A stretch of DNA of 64,000 nt from Nitratiruptor sp. YY09-18. Lineage in GTDB: Bacteria > Campylobacterota > Campylobacteria > Campylobacterales > Nitratiruptoraceae. This document shows positions 59,327 through 64,000 of the stretch, piece by piece. The notes under the pieces are model-generated. The model made no database searches and had not been told where the DNA came from. It saw only the letters and a list, made by a program, of their open reading frames with translations. The translations under genes and the position numbers were made by a program. The number at the start of each line of letters is the position of its first letter. Within the stretch, counting starts at the first letter, position 1. The DNA lies in NCBI RefSeq assembly GCF_016593235.1, contig NZ_AP023065.1:62001-126000 (forward strand), given 5' to 3'.

Positions 59327-59378
59327 TGGCGAAAAAAATATAAAAAACATTGACAATTTTCGCCAAAAGTCGTATAAT
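59327..59378 (+). promoter_or_regulatory. Consensus sigma-70 promoter with an inverted repeat around the -35 box
   Basis: TTGACA at 59350-59355 and TATAAT at 59373-59378 with exactly 17 bases between: a perfect consensus, rare in this group. TGGCGAAAA (59327-59335) and TTTTCGCCA (59357-59365) are exact reverse complements lying on both sides of the -35 box, so a protein bound there would block the promoter. It may also fold as a hairpin after the DUF4139-like gene. Confidence 0.75.
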
Positions 59379-59404
59379 TTTTCCAATCCTTTGAAAGGTG
59401 TGGC

Positions 59405-60070
59405 ATGAATTATATCTACATGCGCAGTAAAAGTGATCGCTACTCTCTTGCTACACAAGAGAAGAGCATCAAAGATTACATGGCGCTCAATGGATACGAA
59501 AATGGAGAGGTGGAGATTGAGGTCTCCCCTATGAGTAAACCTCTCGATGAGCGTGAGGAGTTTCGTCACTTCATGCACTCATTGAAAAAGGGTGATAGGG
59601 TCTTTGTTTATGACCTACGCGCTCTTTCACATCGCATAGGTGAATTGGTGCAGATATTCAACTGCATCTTCAACCACAATATTGAGCTGATTGTGACGAA
59701 ATATGGCACAAAAATCGATGCAAATACGCCATCTTATGTCACAATATCACTGCTCTATGCACAAAGAGAGGAGAACAAACAGCAGCAAGTTCACACCGGA
59801 CGACCAAAAGGGAGTATTTCACGCTCCAAATATGATATCTATCGTGACGAAATCATCAAGATGATCAAGGAGGGCAAAAGTGTAACACAGATTGCTAAGA
59901 GTTTAGGAGTGAGCCGCAGCTCTATTAGGGATTATATCGCTTCTCGAGAGCTTAAAAAAATAGCTCGGGGCGAGGGAGAGAAGGTAAGAATTTTGGAACT
60001 TCCTACACAAGAGTGTCAAATCAAAAAAAAGGATGAGAATAATGGCTACAGCAACAGTCAAACAGTCTAA
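59405..60070 (+). CDS. Serine-recombinase homologue without catalytic residues, probable DNA-binding regulator
   Basis: A 221-residue protein with the layout of Hin/Gin invertases: resolvase domain (1-125), a HTGRPKGS linker and a helix-turn-helix at about 158-178 (SVTQIAKSLGVSRSSIRDYI). The active site is lost. Against YIRVST the text reads YMRSKS, putting Lys at position 9 where the nucleophilic Ser should be (a neighbouring Ser at 8 or 10 would need a shifted alignment), and LDRLGRS becomes LRALSHR, losing both catalytic arginines. It is therefore not a recombinase. I infer a regulator of the ccoG operon; the -35 inverted repeat is a possible target. AAAGGTGTGGC precedes the ATG. Confidence 0.75.
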   Translation: MNYIYMRSKSDRYSLATQEKSIKDYMALNGYENGEVEIEVSPMSKPLDEREEFRHFMHSLKKGDRVFVYDLRALSHRIGELVQIFNCIFNHNIELIVTKYGTKIDANTPSYVTISLLYAQREENKQQQVHTGRPKGSISRSKYDIYRDEIIKMIKEGKSVTQIAKSLGVSRSSIRDYIASRELKKIARGEGEKVRILELPTQECQIKKKDENNGYSNSQTV

Positions 60071-61490
60071 AGTCAATAAAGCCAAAGAGTATCTTAAAAA
60101 CTGGATACCATATCGTTACAAGAGATATGTATTCTTTACAATTGTTACTATCATAGCATTGGTGCTGCCATGGATCCGTATCAATGGTAACCACTTCTTT
60201 TTGCTCAACTTTGACCATATGCAAGTGCATCTCTTTTTCATACGCTTTGATATGCAAGAGCTCTACTTGATGCCGTTTTTGCTGTGGATTTTGTTTTTTG
60301 GAATCTTTTTTATCACCACGCTTGGTGGTCGGGTCTGGTGCGGATGGAGCTGTCCGCAGACTATCTTTAGGGTAATTTACCGCGACTTGATTGAAACAAA
60401 GCTTTTGCATCTTCGCAAACGCATCTCCAACAAGCAGATAGAACCAGATATGAGCAAGCCTGAAAATAAAGTAAAAAAGATTATTGCAATCTTGCTTTGG
60501 TCAGTGCTTGCATTTATAGCAGCAGCAGACTTTTTGTGGTATTTTGTGCCGCCTGAAGATTTCATCCGCTACATTCAAGACCCAGCTAACCACCCTATAC
60601 TTATGGGATTTTGGGTTGGTACTGCACTCTTTTTGATTGCTGATGTAGTATTTATCAAAGAGAACTTCTGTATCTATATATGCCCCTATGCAAGGGTACA
60701 ATCAGTGCTCTATGACGAAGATACTTTCCAAACAGTCTATGACTATAAACGGGGTGGACGCATCTATGATGAGCATGGAAATCTTATCGTCCATAACAAA
60801 AAAGAGCTCAAGTCACAAAAAGAGGAGGCGGAGTGTACACTGTGTGAGTCGTGTGTGAAGGTCTGTCCGACACATATCGATATCCGTAAAGGGATGCAGC
60901 TAGAGTGTATTAACTGTCTTGAGTGTGCAGATGCGTGTACGAAAGTAATGGGCGCTTTAGGTAAAGAGAGCTTGGTACGCTGGACAAGTTACCATGCACT
61001 AGAGACCGGAGAGAAGACACGCGTTTTCCGTTTTCGTATTGTTGCGTATATTGTGATGCTTACTATTGCATTCATAGCGCTCTTTTGGATGGGAAGCAAA
61101 AAAGAGCATATGCTCCTCAACATCAACCGTACAAGTCAGCTCTATAAAATTGAACCGGATGGAAGAGTCAAAAATACATATGTTTTCTTGTTCCAAAATA
61201 CAGAGCGAGAAAAACATAAATACTATTTTGAAATTTTGAACAACAAAGATATCAAGATTGAGAGACCAAGAAAACCATTTACGGTCATTCCTGGCAAGAA
61301 GGTCAAAAAAGTAGTCGTACTCTATACAGACAAAATCTTGGCAAAAAATACGCAAAAAGATGTACCAATTCCAATCAAGATCAAAGCATATGCAGTAGAT
61401 GATCCGAAGAAGATTGCTGTTTTCAGAGATACTATCTTTGTATTCCCACGATGGGATGTTTATCAAAAACATGTACAAAAAAATCAGTAA
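60042..61490 (+). CDS. ccoG: Cytochrome c oxidase accessory protein CcoG (FixG/RdxA)
   Basis: A 482-residue membrane ferredoxin with about five helices. VWCGWSCPQTIFRVIYRD, CIYICPYARVQSVLYDEDT and two 4Fe-4S clusters (CTLCESCVKVCPTHID, CINCLECADACTK) are in the family order, followed by the FixG C-terminal periplasmic Ig-like domain. It is a copper reductase used in assembly of cbb3 oxidase. I chose ATG at 60042 (MATATVKQSK), with AAAAGGATGAG upstream; it overlaps the recombinase-like gene by 29 bases. No ccoNOP genes are in the window. Confidence 0.94.
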   Translation: MATATVKQSKVNKAKEYLKNWIPYRYKRYVFFTIVTIIALVLPWIRINGNHFFLLNFDHMQVHLFFIRFDMQELYLMPFLLWILFFGIFFITTLGGRVWCGWSCPQTIFRVIYRDLIETKLLHLRKRISNKQIEPDMSKPENKVKKIIAILLWSVLAFIAAADFLWYFVPPEDFIRYIQDPANHPILMGFWVGTALFLIADVVFIKENFCIYICPYARVQSVLYDEDTFQTVYDYKRGGRIYDEHGNLIVHNKKELKSQKEEAECTLCESCVKVCPTHIDIRKGMQLECINCLECADACTKVMGALGKESLVRWTSYHALETGEKTRVFRFRIVAYIVMLTIAFIALFWMGSKKEHMLLNINRTSQLYKIEPDGRVKNTYVFLFQNTEREKHKYYFEILNNKDIKIERPRKPFTVIPGKKVKKVVVLYTDKILAKNTQKDVPIPIKIKAYAVDDPKKIAVFRDTIFVFPRWDVYQKHVQKNQ

Positions 61491-61526: not shown

Positions 61527-61880
61527 ATGGTAGCAATGCCGGTGAAGACTAATAAAGAGGATACAGCAATCTCACCACTTTTTGGTCATGCAAAATATTT
61601 TGCTTTTATTGACGAAAACGGCAACGTAACAATTGAGAAAAATCCTGCCAATGGGGGAGGGCAGGTTGTTGCATGGCTAGCGCAAAAGGGAGTAGACAGA
61701 GTCATCACGCAGCATATTGGACGCAAGCCATACCTGTTACTCGAAAAGGCAGGTATCGCTTGCTTCTATCCTGGAGATGGTCGTATAAGTATCAAAGAGG
61801 CTCTAGCAGCAAATCTTGAGCCTATCAACCAAGCAAATATAGATAAATTTGTACGGCATAAAGGACGCAAACATGGCTAA
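61527..61880 (+). CDS. NifX/NifB-type iron-molybdenum-cofactor-binding domain protein
   Basis: A 117-residue protein with the dinitrogenase Fe-Mo cofactor biosynthesis fold (NifX/NafY/NifB C-domain): SPLFGHAKYFAFID, then VVAWLAQKGVDRVITQHIGRKPYLLLEKAGI. No nitrogenase genes are seen, and such domains are also found in other metal or redox loci. AGGAGGGGAA precedes the ATG. It overlaps the next small gene by 8 bases and lies between ccoG and an SQR-like flavoprotein, so a role in metal or cluster handling for respiration is possible. Confidence 0.8.
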   Translation: MVAMPVKTNKEDTAISPLFGHAKYFAFIDENGNVTIEKNPANGGGQVVAWLAQKGVDRVITQHIGRKPYLLLEKAGIACFYPGDGRISIKEALAANLEPINQANIDKFVRHKGRKHG

Positions 61881-62091
61881 AGAGGGTTTCAACGAGTATG
61901 GTGAACCAACTCTTCGTGAAATTGATGATTACAAAGGCAAGGCTTCACCTGAAAAGCGAAGAGCCGTTATGTGGGTAATTATTACAGGACTTACACTTGG
62001 AGTCTTCTATGCGCTAGCCAAGAACTACTTCAAAGATGTAGGTGAAAAAGAGTATAAGATACCGCAAGAGCAAAAGATTCGCAATTTCTAA
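61873..62091 (+). CDS. Small single-pass membrane protein
   Basis: A 72-residue protein (MAKEGFNEYGEPTLREI) with one membrane helix (about residues 33-52, VMWVIITGLTLGVFYALA) and a charged C-terminal tail. ATG at 61873 with AAAGGACGC upstream overlaps the NifX-like gene by 8 bases. Nine bases before the flavoprotein gene. No family recognised. It could anchor the flavoprotein to the membrane. Confidence 0.65.
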   Translation: MAKEGFNEYGEPTLREIDDYKGKASPEKRRAVMWVIITGLTLGVFYALAKNYFKDVGEKEYKIPQEQKIRNF

Positions 62092-62100
62092 GGAGAAAAG

Positions 62101-63270
62101 ATGAAGAAGGTAGTGGTTTTAGGCGGCGGTTTTGCAGGAGTAGAAGCTGCAATATTTTTGCGCAAAAACGGCTTCGAAGTAGATCTCATCACTCCTCGTC
62201 CATACATGTACATCTACCCTACATCCATTTGGGTGCCGGTCTATGAAGCTGAGTTTGCAGATGTCTGTTTGCCGTTAGAAGATCTTGAAAAGGTACATGG
62301 ATTTAAGTGGATAGAGGATGAGGTAGTTGCAATCGATGCGAGCAAAAAAAGCGCAAAAGGCAAAAAGGGAGAGTATAGAGGCGAATATCTCGTCATTGCT
62401 ATGGGTGCAGGGAAAGTGAAGCATGAGGGAAGCGAGAACTATCTCTCTATCTGTGGCGATCCAGAAGATGCCATCAAGATGCGTGATCGTATTGATGAGC
62501 TTGTGACAAAAAAGCGCGGCGGTAAGATTGCAATGGGTTTTGGCGGCAATCCAAAAGATAGCTCAGCCGTGCGAGGGGGACCGGCGTTTGAGATGATTTT
62601 CAATGTGCATAATTATCTCAAGAAAAAGGGTCTGCGTGATCGTTTTGAGCTCACATTCTTTGCCACAATGGCTGAGCCTGGGAAGAGACTTGGACCGCAG
62701 GCGCTCAAGATGATGGATCTCTTTTTCAATAAACTAGGTATCAAGAAACATTTTGGCAAAAAGATCAAGCGCTTTGAGCCAAATGGCATTGTCTTTGAAG
62801 ATGATAGCTTTTTAGAGAGCGATTTTACGATGTTTATCCCTGCAAATGCAGGGCATCCTGTCTTTCAAAATGCAGACTTGCCACTGAGTGAAGCTGGATT
62901 TATCCTCATAGATGAGTATTGTGAAGTCAAAGATAAGCCAGGAGTCTATGCAATAGGTGATAGTGCCTATATTGAAGGTCCGCAGTGGAGGGCAAAGCAG
63001 GGGCATATTGCCGAAGTTATGGCTCGCAACACAGCCAACAACATAGCAATTGATGCTGGTGTAAAAGTAGGTAAAAAAGAGAGCTATATTCACCACCTCA
63101 ATATTATCTGCGTGATGGATAGCGGTGATGGAGCGGCTTTTGTTTATCGCGATGACAAGCGTGGAGTAATGCTTCCTATGCCAATTGTAGGACACTGGCT
63201 CAAAAAGAGTTGGGGCTGGTACTGCCGCAATTCTAAGCTAGAAAAAATTCCTCGCCTACCAGGGCTTTAA
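62101..63270 (+). CDS. SQR/NDH-2-like FAD oxidoreductase
   Basis: A 389-residue flavoprotein. FAD site VVVLGGGFAGVEAAIFL at the N-terminus and GVYAIGDSAYIEGPQWRAKQGHIAEVMARN near 280-310 are the shared SQR/flavocytochrome c/NDH-2 motifs; a hydrophobic amphipathic C-terminus (VGHWLKKSWGWYCRN) should dock to the membrane. Of the two SQR catalytic cysteines, one may be C337 (IICVMDSG), but the central one is missing: the region that normally reads KCAGAP is SAVRGGP (157-161). So sulfide oxidation of the usual kind is doubtful. It probably reduces quinone for the cytochrome bd oxidase encoded next. Confidence 0.75.
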   Translation: MKKVVVLGGGFAGVEAAIFLRKNGFEVDLITPRPYMYIYPTSIWVPVYEAEFADVCLPLEDLEKVHGFKWIEDEVVAIDASKKSAKGKKGEYRGEYLVIAMGAGKVKHEGSENYLSICGDPEDAIKMRDRIDELVTKKRGGKIAMGFGGNPKDSSAVRGGPAFEMIFNVHNYLKKKGLRDRFELTFFATMAEPGKRLGPQALKMMDLFFNKLGIKKHFGKKIKRFEPNGIVFEDDSFLESDFTMFIPANAGHPVFQNADLPLSEAGFILIDEYCEVKDKPGVYAIGDSAYIEGPQWRAKQGHIAEVMARNTANNIAIDAGVKVGKKESYIHHLNIICVMDSGDGAAFVYRDDKRGVMLPMPIVGHWLKKSWGWYCRNSKLEKIPRLPGL

Positions 63271-63294: not shown

Positions 63295-63510
63295 ATGAGA
63301 ATGAAAGCTATTATCGATTTTTATATCGATGGTTTTCGCAATATGAGCAAGCTTGGCAAAAAACTTTGGCTCATAATTGCTATCAAATTTTTTATCTTTT
63401 TCATGATTATCAAAATGCTCTTTTTCCCAGATATCTTGCACGAGAAGTTCCATAGTGATAAAGAGCGAGCGAACTATGTGATGAAAACCTTATTAGGAGG
63501 GGAGAAATGA
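63295..63510 (+). CDS. DUF4492 membrane protein linked to cytochrome bd
   Basis: A 71-residue protein with one membrane helix ([21 protein letters not shown]). [20 protein letters not shown] at the N-terminus and [24 protein letters not shown] at the end match DUF4492, which in Campylobacterota and Bacteroidetes is found beside cydA and may be an accessory subunit of cytochrome bd. Its stop overlaps the cydA ATG (ATGA), with AGGAGGGGAGAA serving as ribosome-binding site for cydA. Confidence 0.85.
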
Positions 63511-64000
63511 CAGTGGATACATCTTTGGTAGATTGGAGCAGAGCGCAGTTTGCACTCACTGCAATCTATCACTTTTTGTTTGTTCCTTTGACATTGGGGC
63601 TATCGTTTATTGTAGCGATTATGGAGACAATATATGTAACAACAGGTGACGAGAAGTGGAAAGAGGTGACTCTTTTTTGGATGAAGCTCTTTGGTATTAA
63701 CTTTGCCATTGGGCTTGCAACGGGTATCATTATGGAGTTTGAATTTGGTACAAACTGGGCAAATTACAGCTGGTTTGTAGGTGATATTTTTGGAGCGCCT
63801 CTTGCAATTGAAGGGATCATGGCATTCTTCCTCGAATCTACCTTCTTTGCAGTGATGTTTTTTGGGTGGAACAGAGTAAGCAAGAAGTTTCATCTTCTTG
63901 CTACCTGGCTTGTGGCGATCGGATCAAATCTCTCAGCCCTTTGGATCTTGGTAGCAAACGGTTGGATGCAGCATCCAGTTGGTATGCAGTTTAACCCAGA
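63507..64000 (+). CDS. cydA: Cytochrome bd oxidase subunit I, 3' part outside the window
   Basis: The first 164 codons of CydA are present ([19 protein letters not shown]). The N-terminal helix has [15 protein letters not shown] with the haem-ligand His (about residue 22), followed by [29 protein letters not shown] and [26 protein letters not shown]. It is the quinol-binding subunit of a high-affinity terminal oxidase. Translationally coupled to DUF4492 by an ATGA overlap. The remainder and cydB are expected to the right of the window. Confidence 0.96.

Follow-up and report, generated by a model that had tools for sequence, protein, structure and literature searches.

A serine recombinase homologue that has lost its active site, encoded beside ccoG in Campylobacterota, is a likely regulator of respiratory genes

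Results

Organisation of the locus

The window, by which we mean the whole 64,000-nucleotide stretch of Nitratiruptor sp. YY09-18 DNA that was analysed, ends inside an operon headed by the gene that concerns us here. All genes and promoter elements described lie on the forward strand, and coordinates are those of the window unless another locus is named. The first gene (59405-60070) encodes a protein of 221 residues, which we propose to be a regulator and identify as a catalytically dead serine recombinase homologue on the basis of Pfam matches, a fold match, active-site loss and purifying selection. It is followed by ccoG (60042-61490; TIGR02745, 498 bits) of the cytochrome oxidase accessory/cupric reductase family, CcoG being a cupric reductase family protein (PMC8267372), and by a gene for a NifX-like protein with a Nitro_FeMo-Co domain (61527-61880; PF02579, E 1e-14). 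After a small ORF of 71 residues without a family match (61876-62091) comes a gene for an SQR-like flavoprotein of the sulfide:quinone reductase superfamily (62101-63270; Pyr_redox_2), whose best solved relatives are 3h8i (E 2e-27) and the SQR 3hyv (E 8e-24). A DUF4492 gene (63295-63510; PF14899, E 1e-25), of a kind that also precedes cydA in loci L188 and L191, leads into the start of cydA, encoding subunit I of a bd-type quinol oxidase (63507-64000; PF01654). Beyond the end of the window cydA is completed and followed by cydB (L123:8-1549 and 1542-2663). The operon thus runs from the regulator gene through the SQR-like gene into cydAB. Several relatives retain the 71-residue ORF in the same position, between the genes for the NifX-like and SQR-like proteins.

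The regulator gene and ccoG overlap by 29 bases, given a ccoG start at ATG 60042, a start favoured by the orthologues and by an AGGA ribosome site; the ORF listing offers an alternative in-frame ATG nine bases earlier, at 60033. Upstream of the operon is a sigma-70 promoter (59350-59378) that matches the consensus at 12 of 12 positions, with -35 TTGACA at 59350-59355, -10 TATAAT at 59373-59378 and a spacer of 17, and it is the sole 12/12 match within 14 kb. An exact 9-bp inverted repeat, TGGCGAAAA (59327-59335) and TTTTCGCCA (59357-59365), flanks the -35 box and forms the arms of a putative 39-bp operator dyad (59327-59365, no strand assigned); when the window was shuffled 100 times, the repeat never arose. 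Being upstream of the -10 box, the dyad falls outside the transcript and so must act as DNA rather than RNA; its position rules out a reading as an RNA hairpin. An earlier, sequence-only reading of this locus had reported the consensus promoter, the exact 9-base inverted repeat flanking the -35 box and the 29-base overlap; the first two held, and the third holds if ccoG starts at ATG 60042.

The protein has the fold of a small serine recombinase

The ORF matches PF00239 Resolvase (E 5e-10) and the resolvase helix-turn-helix (HTH) family PF02796 (E 2e-6), and its sequence relatives in the PDB include the gamma-delta and Tn3 resolvases. An AlphaFold model built from 75 orthologues has a mean pLDDT of 88, and its top Foldseek match is gamma-delta resolvase (E 3e-9 to 3e-8 against 2gm4 and 1gdt). 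By descent and by fold, the protein therefore belongs to the serine recombinase superfamily, with a resolvase N-terminal domain and an HTH. The C-terminal HTH (residues 144-181; 59834-59947) is the most conserved part of the protein. Ahead of it, a near-invariant GRPKG linker motif (residues 132-136; 59798-59812) resembles the GRPR minor-groove element of Hin, by analogy with which we assign its function. The gene is single-copy in the source genome. A comparison with phage sequences gave no match, and only plasmid recombinases of less than 30% identity were found, so that a donor has not been identified.

The active site is lost throughout the family

Aligned with gamma-delta resolvase and Hin, the protein has Lys9 (codon 59429-59431) in place of the nucleophile Ser10, Ala73 in place of Arg68 and His76 in place of Arg71, while Arg8 (R7), Gln19 (Q18) and Arg45 (R50) are retained. 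Among 94 non-identical orthologues, which constitute our family alignment, a serine occupies the nucleophile column in only four; Arg68 is kept in none and Arg71 in one, and the Arg8 and Arg45 equivalents are largely retained. From the middle of helix E (the L117 equivalent) to GRPKG there are 14-17 residues in all orthologues, against 30 in Hin. The long helix E that grips the crossover site in active enzymes is thus absent from this family. Residues invariant in the family are Q18, C87, GRP-G, S139, S141, D144, R171, S173, D176, S180, R181 and C204. In 13 of 14 close pairs dS could be computed, giving dN/dS values of 0.04-0.09, with both domains constrained. We infer from these sequences that the protein is maintained as a non-enzymatic one, lacking a working active site family-wide; the absence of cleavage and strand exchange is likewise an inference.

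The sequence-only reading had described a Hin/Gin layout with a C-terminal HTH, the nucleophilic serine aligned with lysine and two arginines lost. The HTH and the losses held, the latter throughout the family; the match to the Hin/Gin layout is approximate, some 14 residues being missing from helix E. That reading was to be refuted by an intact Ser/Arg site or by an unconserved location, and neither was found: the active site is lost family-wide, and the location is conserved (see below).

Two alternatives bear on these data. The first is that the protein is a still-active invertase or resolvase that uses another nucleophile, with the dyad as its crossover site. In favour of this are the recombinase fold, a gene-adjacent dyad as in res sites, and the presence of the Arg8 and Arg45 equivalents. 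However, the nucleophile, Arg68 and Arg71 are lost and helix E is 14 residues short; furthermore, there is as a rule only one strict dyad per genome, and hence no partner site for recombination. Active-site loss and the short helix E lead us to reject this alternative with little reservation. The second is that the gene is the decaying, functionless remnant of a mobile element, as the lost catalytic residues and the divergent N-terminal domain might suggest. Against this stand the low dN/dS in both domains, reading frames that remain open and a position that is unchanged across the class, and a conserved promoter and dyad. Selection and conservation together rule it out for practical purposes.

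We also observed a different degenerate serine recombinase family in genomes of family f9 (L125:917-1552, minus strand, and L154, L155 and L156). Its members appear to have lost the Ser10 and Arg68 equivalents and retain FGR, and the L125 gene lies directly upstream of one that reads like ribosomal protein L9. This could be another domesticated recombinase.

The gene keeps its place beside ccoG across Campylobacterota

The protein is present in 35 of 60 genomes searched, and a scan of the genome collection confirmed 213 stretches that encode relatives. The best 80 of these are labelled Campylobacterota (including Nitratiruptor, Sulfurovum, Sulfurospirillum and Hydrogenimonas) or Epsilonproteobacteria, except for one titled only 'Proteobacteria'. 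Directly downstream of the regulator gene lies ccoG in 29 of 30 relatives, and in all 51 loci with enough downstream sequence; class-level loci agree. What follows ccoG is variable, with an SQR-like flavoprotein in 21 of the 51 loci and cydAB in two. The sequence-only reading had proposed a survey of genomes for adjacency to ccoG or cytochrome bd; adjacency to ccoG proves almost universal. The genes upstream of the regulator also vary among loci, and synteny therefore does not explain why the promoter is conserved.

Some observations concern ccoG itself. In locus L133/L184 (G059:C1:39814-43262) both genes downstream of the regulator, ccoG and the SQR-like one, contain several stops and are apparently decayed; the same genome carries a second, intact ccoG about 90 kb away. 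In several relatives (G001, G003, G011 and G017) ccoG is present twice, the two copies being nearly equal and scoring almost identically, which points to gene conversion or a recent duplication. In G001 the second copy (L117) is without a dyad.

The dyad and promoter recur before the orthologues

An element of the form TGRCG-N17..19-TTGAC-N6-CGYCA followed by a -10 box, that is, a dyad TGRCG-N28..30-CGYCA, recurs among the promoters of the 94 orthologues. The dyad scores at least 13/15 in 84 of the 94; its length is 38-40 bp in 93, and the -35/-10 spacer is 17 or 18 in 89. G2 and G5 of the arms are invariant on both sides (84/84). Arms from the same locus match one another better than randomly paired arms do (p 0.0016; 0.021 in a 70%-non-redundant set), and in Sulfurospirillum arcachonense-type loci (L074 and L083) the outer pair has changed on both sides, to AGACG...CGTCT. 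The site has decayed in about 10 of the 94, mainly in Sulfurovum-type promoters. The recurrence of gene, neighbour and dyad/promoter across Campylobacterota is far beyond chance. Some 89% of sigma-70 promoters in C. jejuni lack a -35 box and have a periodic A/T pattern instead (PMC3656092), and by comparison the conserved -35 box of the regulator promoters is unusual for the group.

In L020, L021, L023 and L028 the normal dyad is preceded by an extra half site of the TGACGA type, a hint that the operator may be a multi-site one.

The same dyad precedes unlinked SQR-like and cyd genes in some relatives

In one relative, G038, the regulator homologue is unlinked from both ccoG and cyd. Here a NifX-like relative heads the cyd operon behind a dyad of its own, which is perfect and accompanied by a promoter (L112:1645-1683), while another 39-bp dyad precedes the regulator gene. 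In G166 the SQR-like gene lies on a separate contig, where a dyad with promoter precedes it. We derived a weight matrix from the 84 regulator promoters; applied to unlinked targets, it located dyads in G037, G080 and G162, 85-86 bp ahead of the unlinked SQR-like gene, and in G045 and G027 ahead of DUF4492-cydA (0/2000 Markov nulls in each case). In total, an unlinked SQR-like gene has the dyad in four genomes and an unlinked cyd operon in three (G038, G045 and G027). The unlinked SQR-like genes of G054, G046 and G176 show no dyad, nor do the cyd loci of G043 and of four Sulfurospirillum-type genomes; that before the unlinked SQR-like gene of G151 is weak.

As controls we used genomes without the regulator, including G062, which is of the same genus as G037, G080 and G162. 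None of the 17 promoters examined there (ccoG, SQR-like or cydA genes) held the dyad, the best control scoring 6.6 where the 5th percentile of true sites is 20.8. A hand calculation for 7/17 against 0/17 gives a one-sided hypergeometric probability of ∼0.004; it is important to note that three of the seven share a genus and are not independent. In a survey of 160 genomes the regulator was present in 27 (cut-off E≤1e-57, the next class of matches lying at E≥1e-22), and a strict site lay 50-110 bp upstream in 20 of the 27; the other 133 showed scattered matches only. Thus the same dyad stands before unlinked, functionally related genes and is absent where the regulator is absent, though it is not found in every genome. 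The link to respiration drawn by the sequence-only reading held, and is strengthened by cydAB in the operon and by the dyads before unlinked SQR-like and cyd genes.

These data bear on the possibility that a different transcription factor occupies the dyad, the recombinase homologue serving, for example, a DNA-bridging or structural role. Binding by the regulator has not been shown, and some genomes that carry the gene lack a strict site, both of which leave room for this explanation. However, the dyad occurs only in company with the gene, about once per genome and right before it, and goes with the regulator where that is separated from ccoG (G038). Furthermore, its layout, with an outer specific arm and an inner A/T tract, fits DNA reading of the Hin type. 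We consider this explanation very improbable.

A search of the source genome for a larger regulon, using strict and relaxed patterns, gave only the promoter site and two further matches, both of which we take to be chance. One is a relaxed match, TGACGAAAT...ATACGCCA, at 59694-59731 within the regulator's own coding sequence and probably fortuitous; the other is a GC-richer match elsewhere. In G037 the pattern also matched at 1297560, where no gene was seen starting behind it; this too we take to be chance.

Two invariant cysteines

Cys87 (codon 59663-59665) and the C-terminal Cys204 (codon 60014-60016) are invariant in 94/94 orthologues, and in 43 of the 94 proteins they are the sole cysteines. 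In the AlphaFold model the C-terminal tail, which carries Cys204, is of low confidence. We infer that this pair is the most likely switch, responding to thiol redox, reactive sulfur or Cu(I); an effect of ligand or oxidation on DNA binding is itself inferred. The G038 homologue (L030:1315-1869) has neither cysteine, Cys87 being lost and Cys204 having gone with the entire C-terminal tail, and a 39-bp dyad is retained there.

Discussion

Our conclusion is that this gene probably encodes a domesticated serine recombinase which has lost catalysis and acts as the repressor of a small respiratory regulon as well as of its own operon. There are no binding or expression data, and both the binding and the sign of control are inferred. 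In this model a dimer of the regulator would sit on the 39-bp dyad, its HTHs on the outer TGRCG arms and its GRPKG linkers in the inner A/T minor groove, a reading of the dyad modelled on Hin. So placed, it would cover the -35 box of its own promoter and repress the regulator gene and ccoG and, in the source genome, the NifX-like, SQR-like and cydAB genes; unlinked SQR-like and cyd genes of some relatives would be under the same control via the dyad. Oxidation or liganding of C87/C204 would release the DNA. We infer repression because the promoter whose -35 box the dyad covers is close to consensus and so would not be expected to depend on an activator. Judging from the regulon (CcoG, an SQR-like protein and a bd-type oxidase), the signal may be reactive sulfur, thiol oxidation or copper status, with no choice possible among the three.

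There is another possible reading of the sign of control. The dyad-bound protein could be an activator or dual regulator that contacts RNA polymerase from a site centred near -39; class II activators also sit at dyads centred at about this position, and the fixed spacing from dyad to -10 fits either sign. We consider this unlikely, given that both the -35 and -10 boxes are near consensus, which is not usual at activator-dependent promoters, and that a dyad arm covers the region beside the -35 box, the L030 dyad of G038 spanning a TATA-like element too. Returning to the repressor reading, we note as points against it the dyads missing at some unlinked targets, the decayed sites, the wide dyad and the G038 homologue without the two cysteines. 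The claim of a catalysis-lost invertase homologue is supported, while the repressing or sensing role that the sequence-only reading attached to it remains an inference in the absence of binding data. Taken together, the comparative support for a regulator is strong, making it the probable reading, with no experiment as yet.

A bolder reading is that a class-wide family of serine recombinases has become a thiol-switched repressor (redox, reactive-sulfur or Cu(I)) of alternative respiration, comprising CcoG, the SQR-like flavoprotein and the copper-free bd-type oxidase, with an expanded 39-bp operator that possibly derives from a res-like site. We judge this fuller version a little more apt to fail than to hold. 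Should the main reading hold, the gene would supply a respiratory regulator for a large group of free-living Campylobacterota (Nitratiruptor, Sulfurovum, Sulfurospirillum and Hydrogenimonas), and the regulon points to a way in which these bacteria may turn to bd-type quinol oxidases, which in E. coli withstand sulfide (PMC4815019). It would also offer a testable conversion of enzyme to transcription factor within the serine recombinase superfamily, with a defined putative operator and many orthologues. To our knowledge no earlier metabolic transcription factor derived from a serine recombinase has been described, and this one would be the first. Annotation by domain content would label these genes recombinases, and the regulator is thus easily overlooked. 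The literature that we searched, which left most subscription journals uncovered, contained neither a metabolic regulator derived from a serine recombinase nor this gene beside ccoG. A 2019 review of respiratory regulation mentions no recombinase or resolvase for the group (PMC6682613), and in a review of genes recruited from mobile elements serine recombinases appear in connection with inversion and with integration/excision (PMC8987985).

With the small serine recombinases (gamma-delta and Tn3 resolvases, Hin and Gin invertases) the regulator shares the resolvase fold, the C-terminal HTH, the GRPK linker and a dyad beside its own gene. Resolvases are also known to repress their own promoters. 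Unlike these enzymes, the regulator has lost Ser, Arg68 and Arg71, has a helix E about 14 residues shorter, and occupies a fixed chromosomal place beside ccoG without a mobile element; its dyad is 38-40 bp long, whereas the sites of Hin or resolvase are 26-28 bp. Its top NCBIfam match is Master DNA invertase Mpi (NF009949; E 8e-13), yet at 48.6 bits against a cut-off of 272 it is not a member of that family. To SqrR, BigR and YgaV (PMC9774250) the likeness is functional only, that of a proposed two-cysteine repressor with an SQR-type gene among its targets; those proteins are of the ArsR family and experimentally supported, whereas the regulator's fold is unrelated and its signal unknown. A parallel in kind is MrpR, the SP-beta master repressor, a tyrosine recombinase turned repressor (PMC10516654). 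Both have a recombinase fold and lost catalysis, and MrpR acts as a repressor on a conserved element, as we propose for the regulator; MrpR, however, is a prophage tyrosine recombinase, whereas the regulator is a serine recombinase homologue with a putative chromosomal respiratory regulon.
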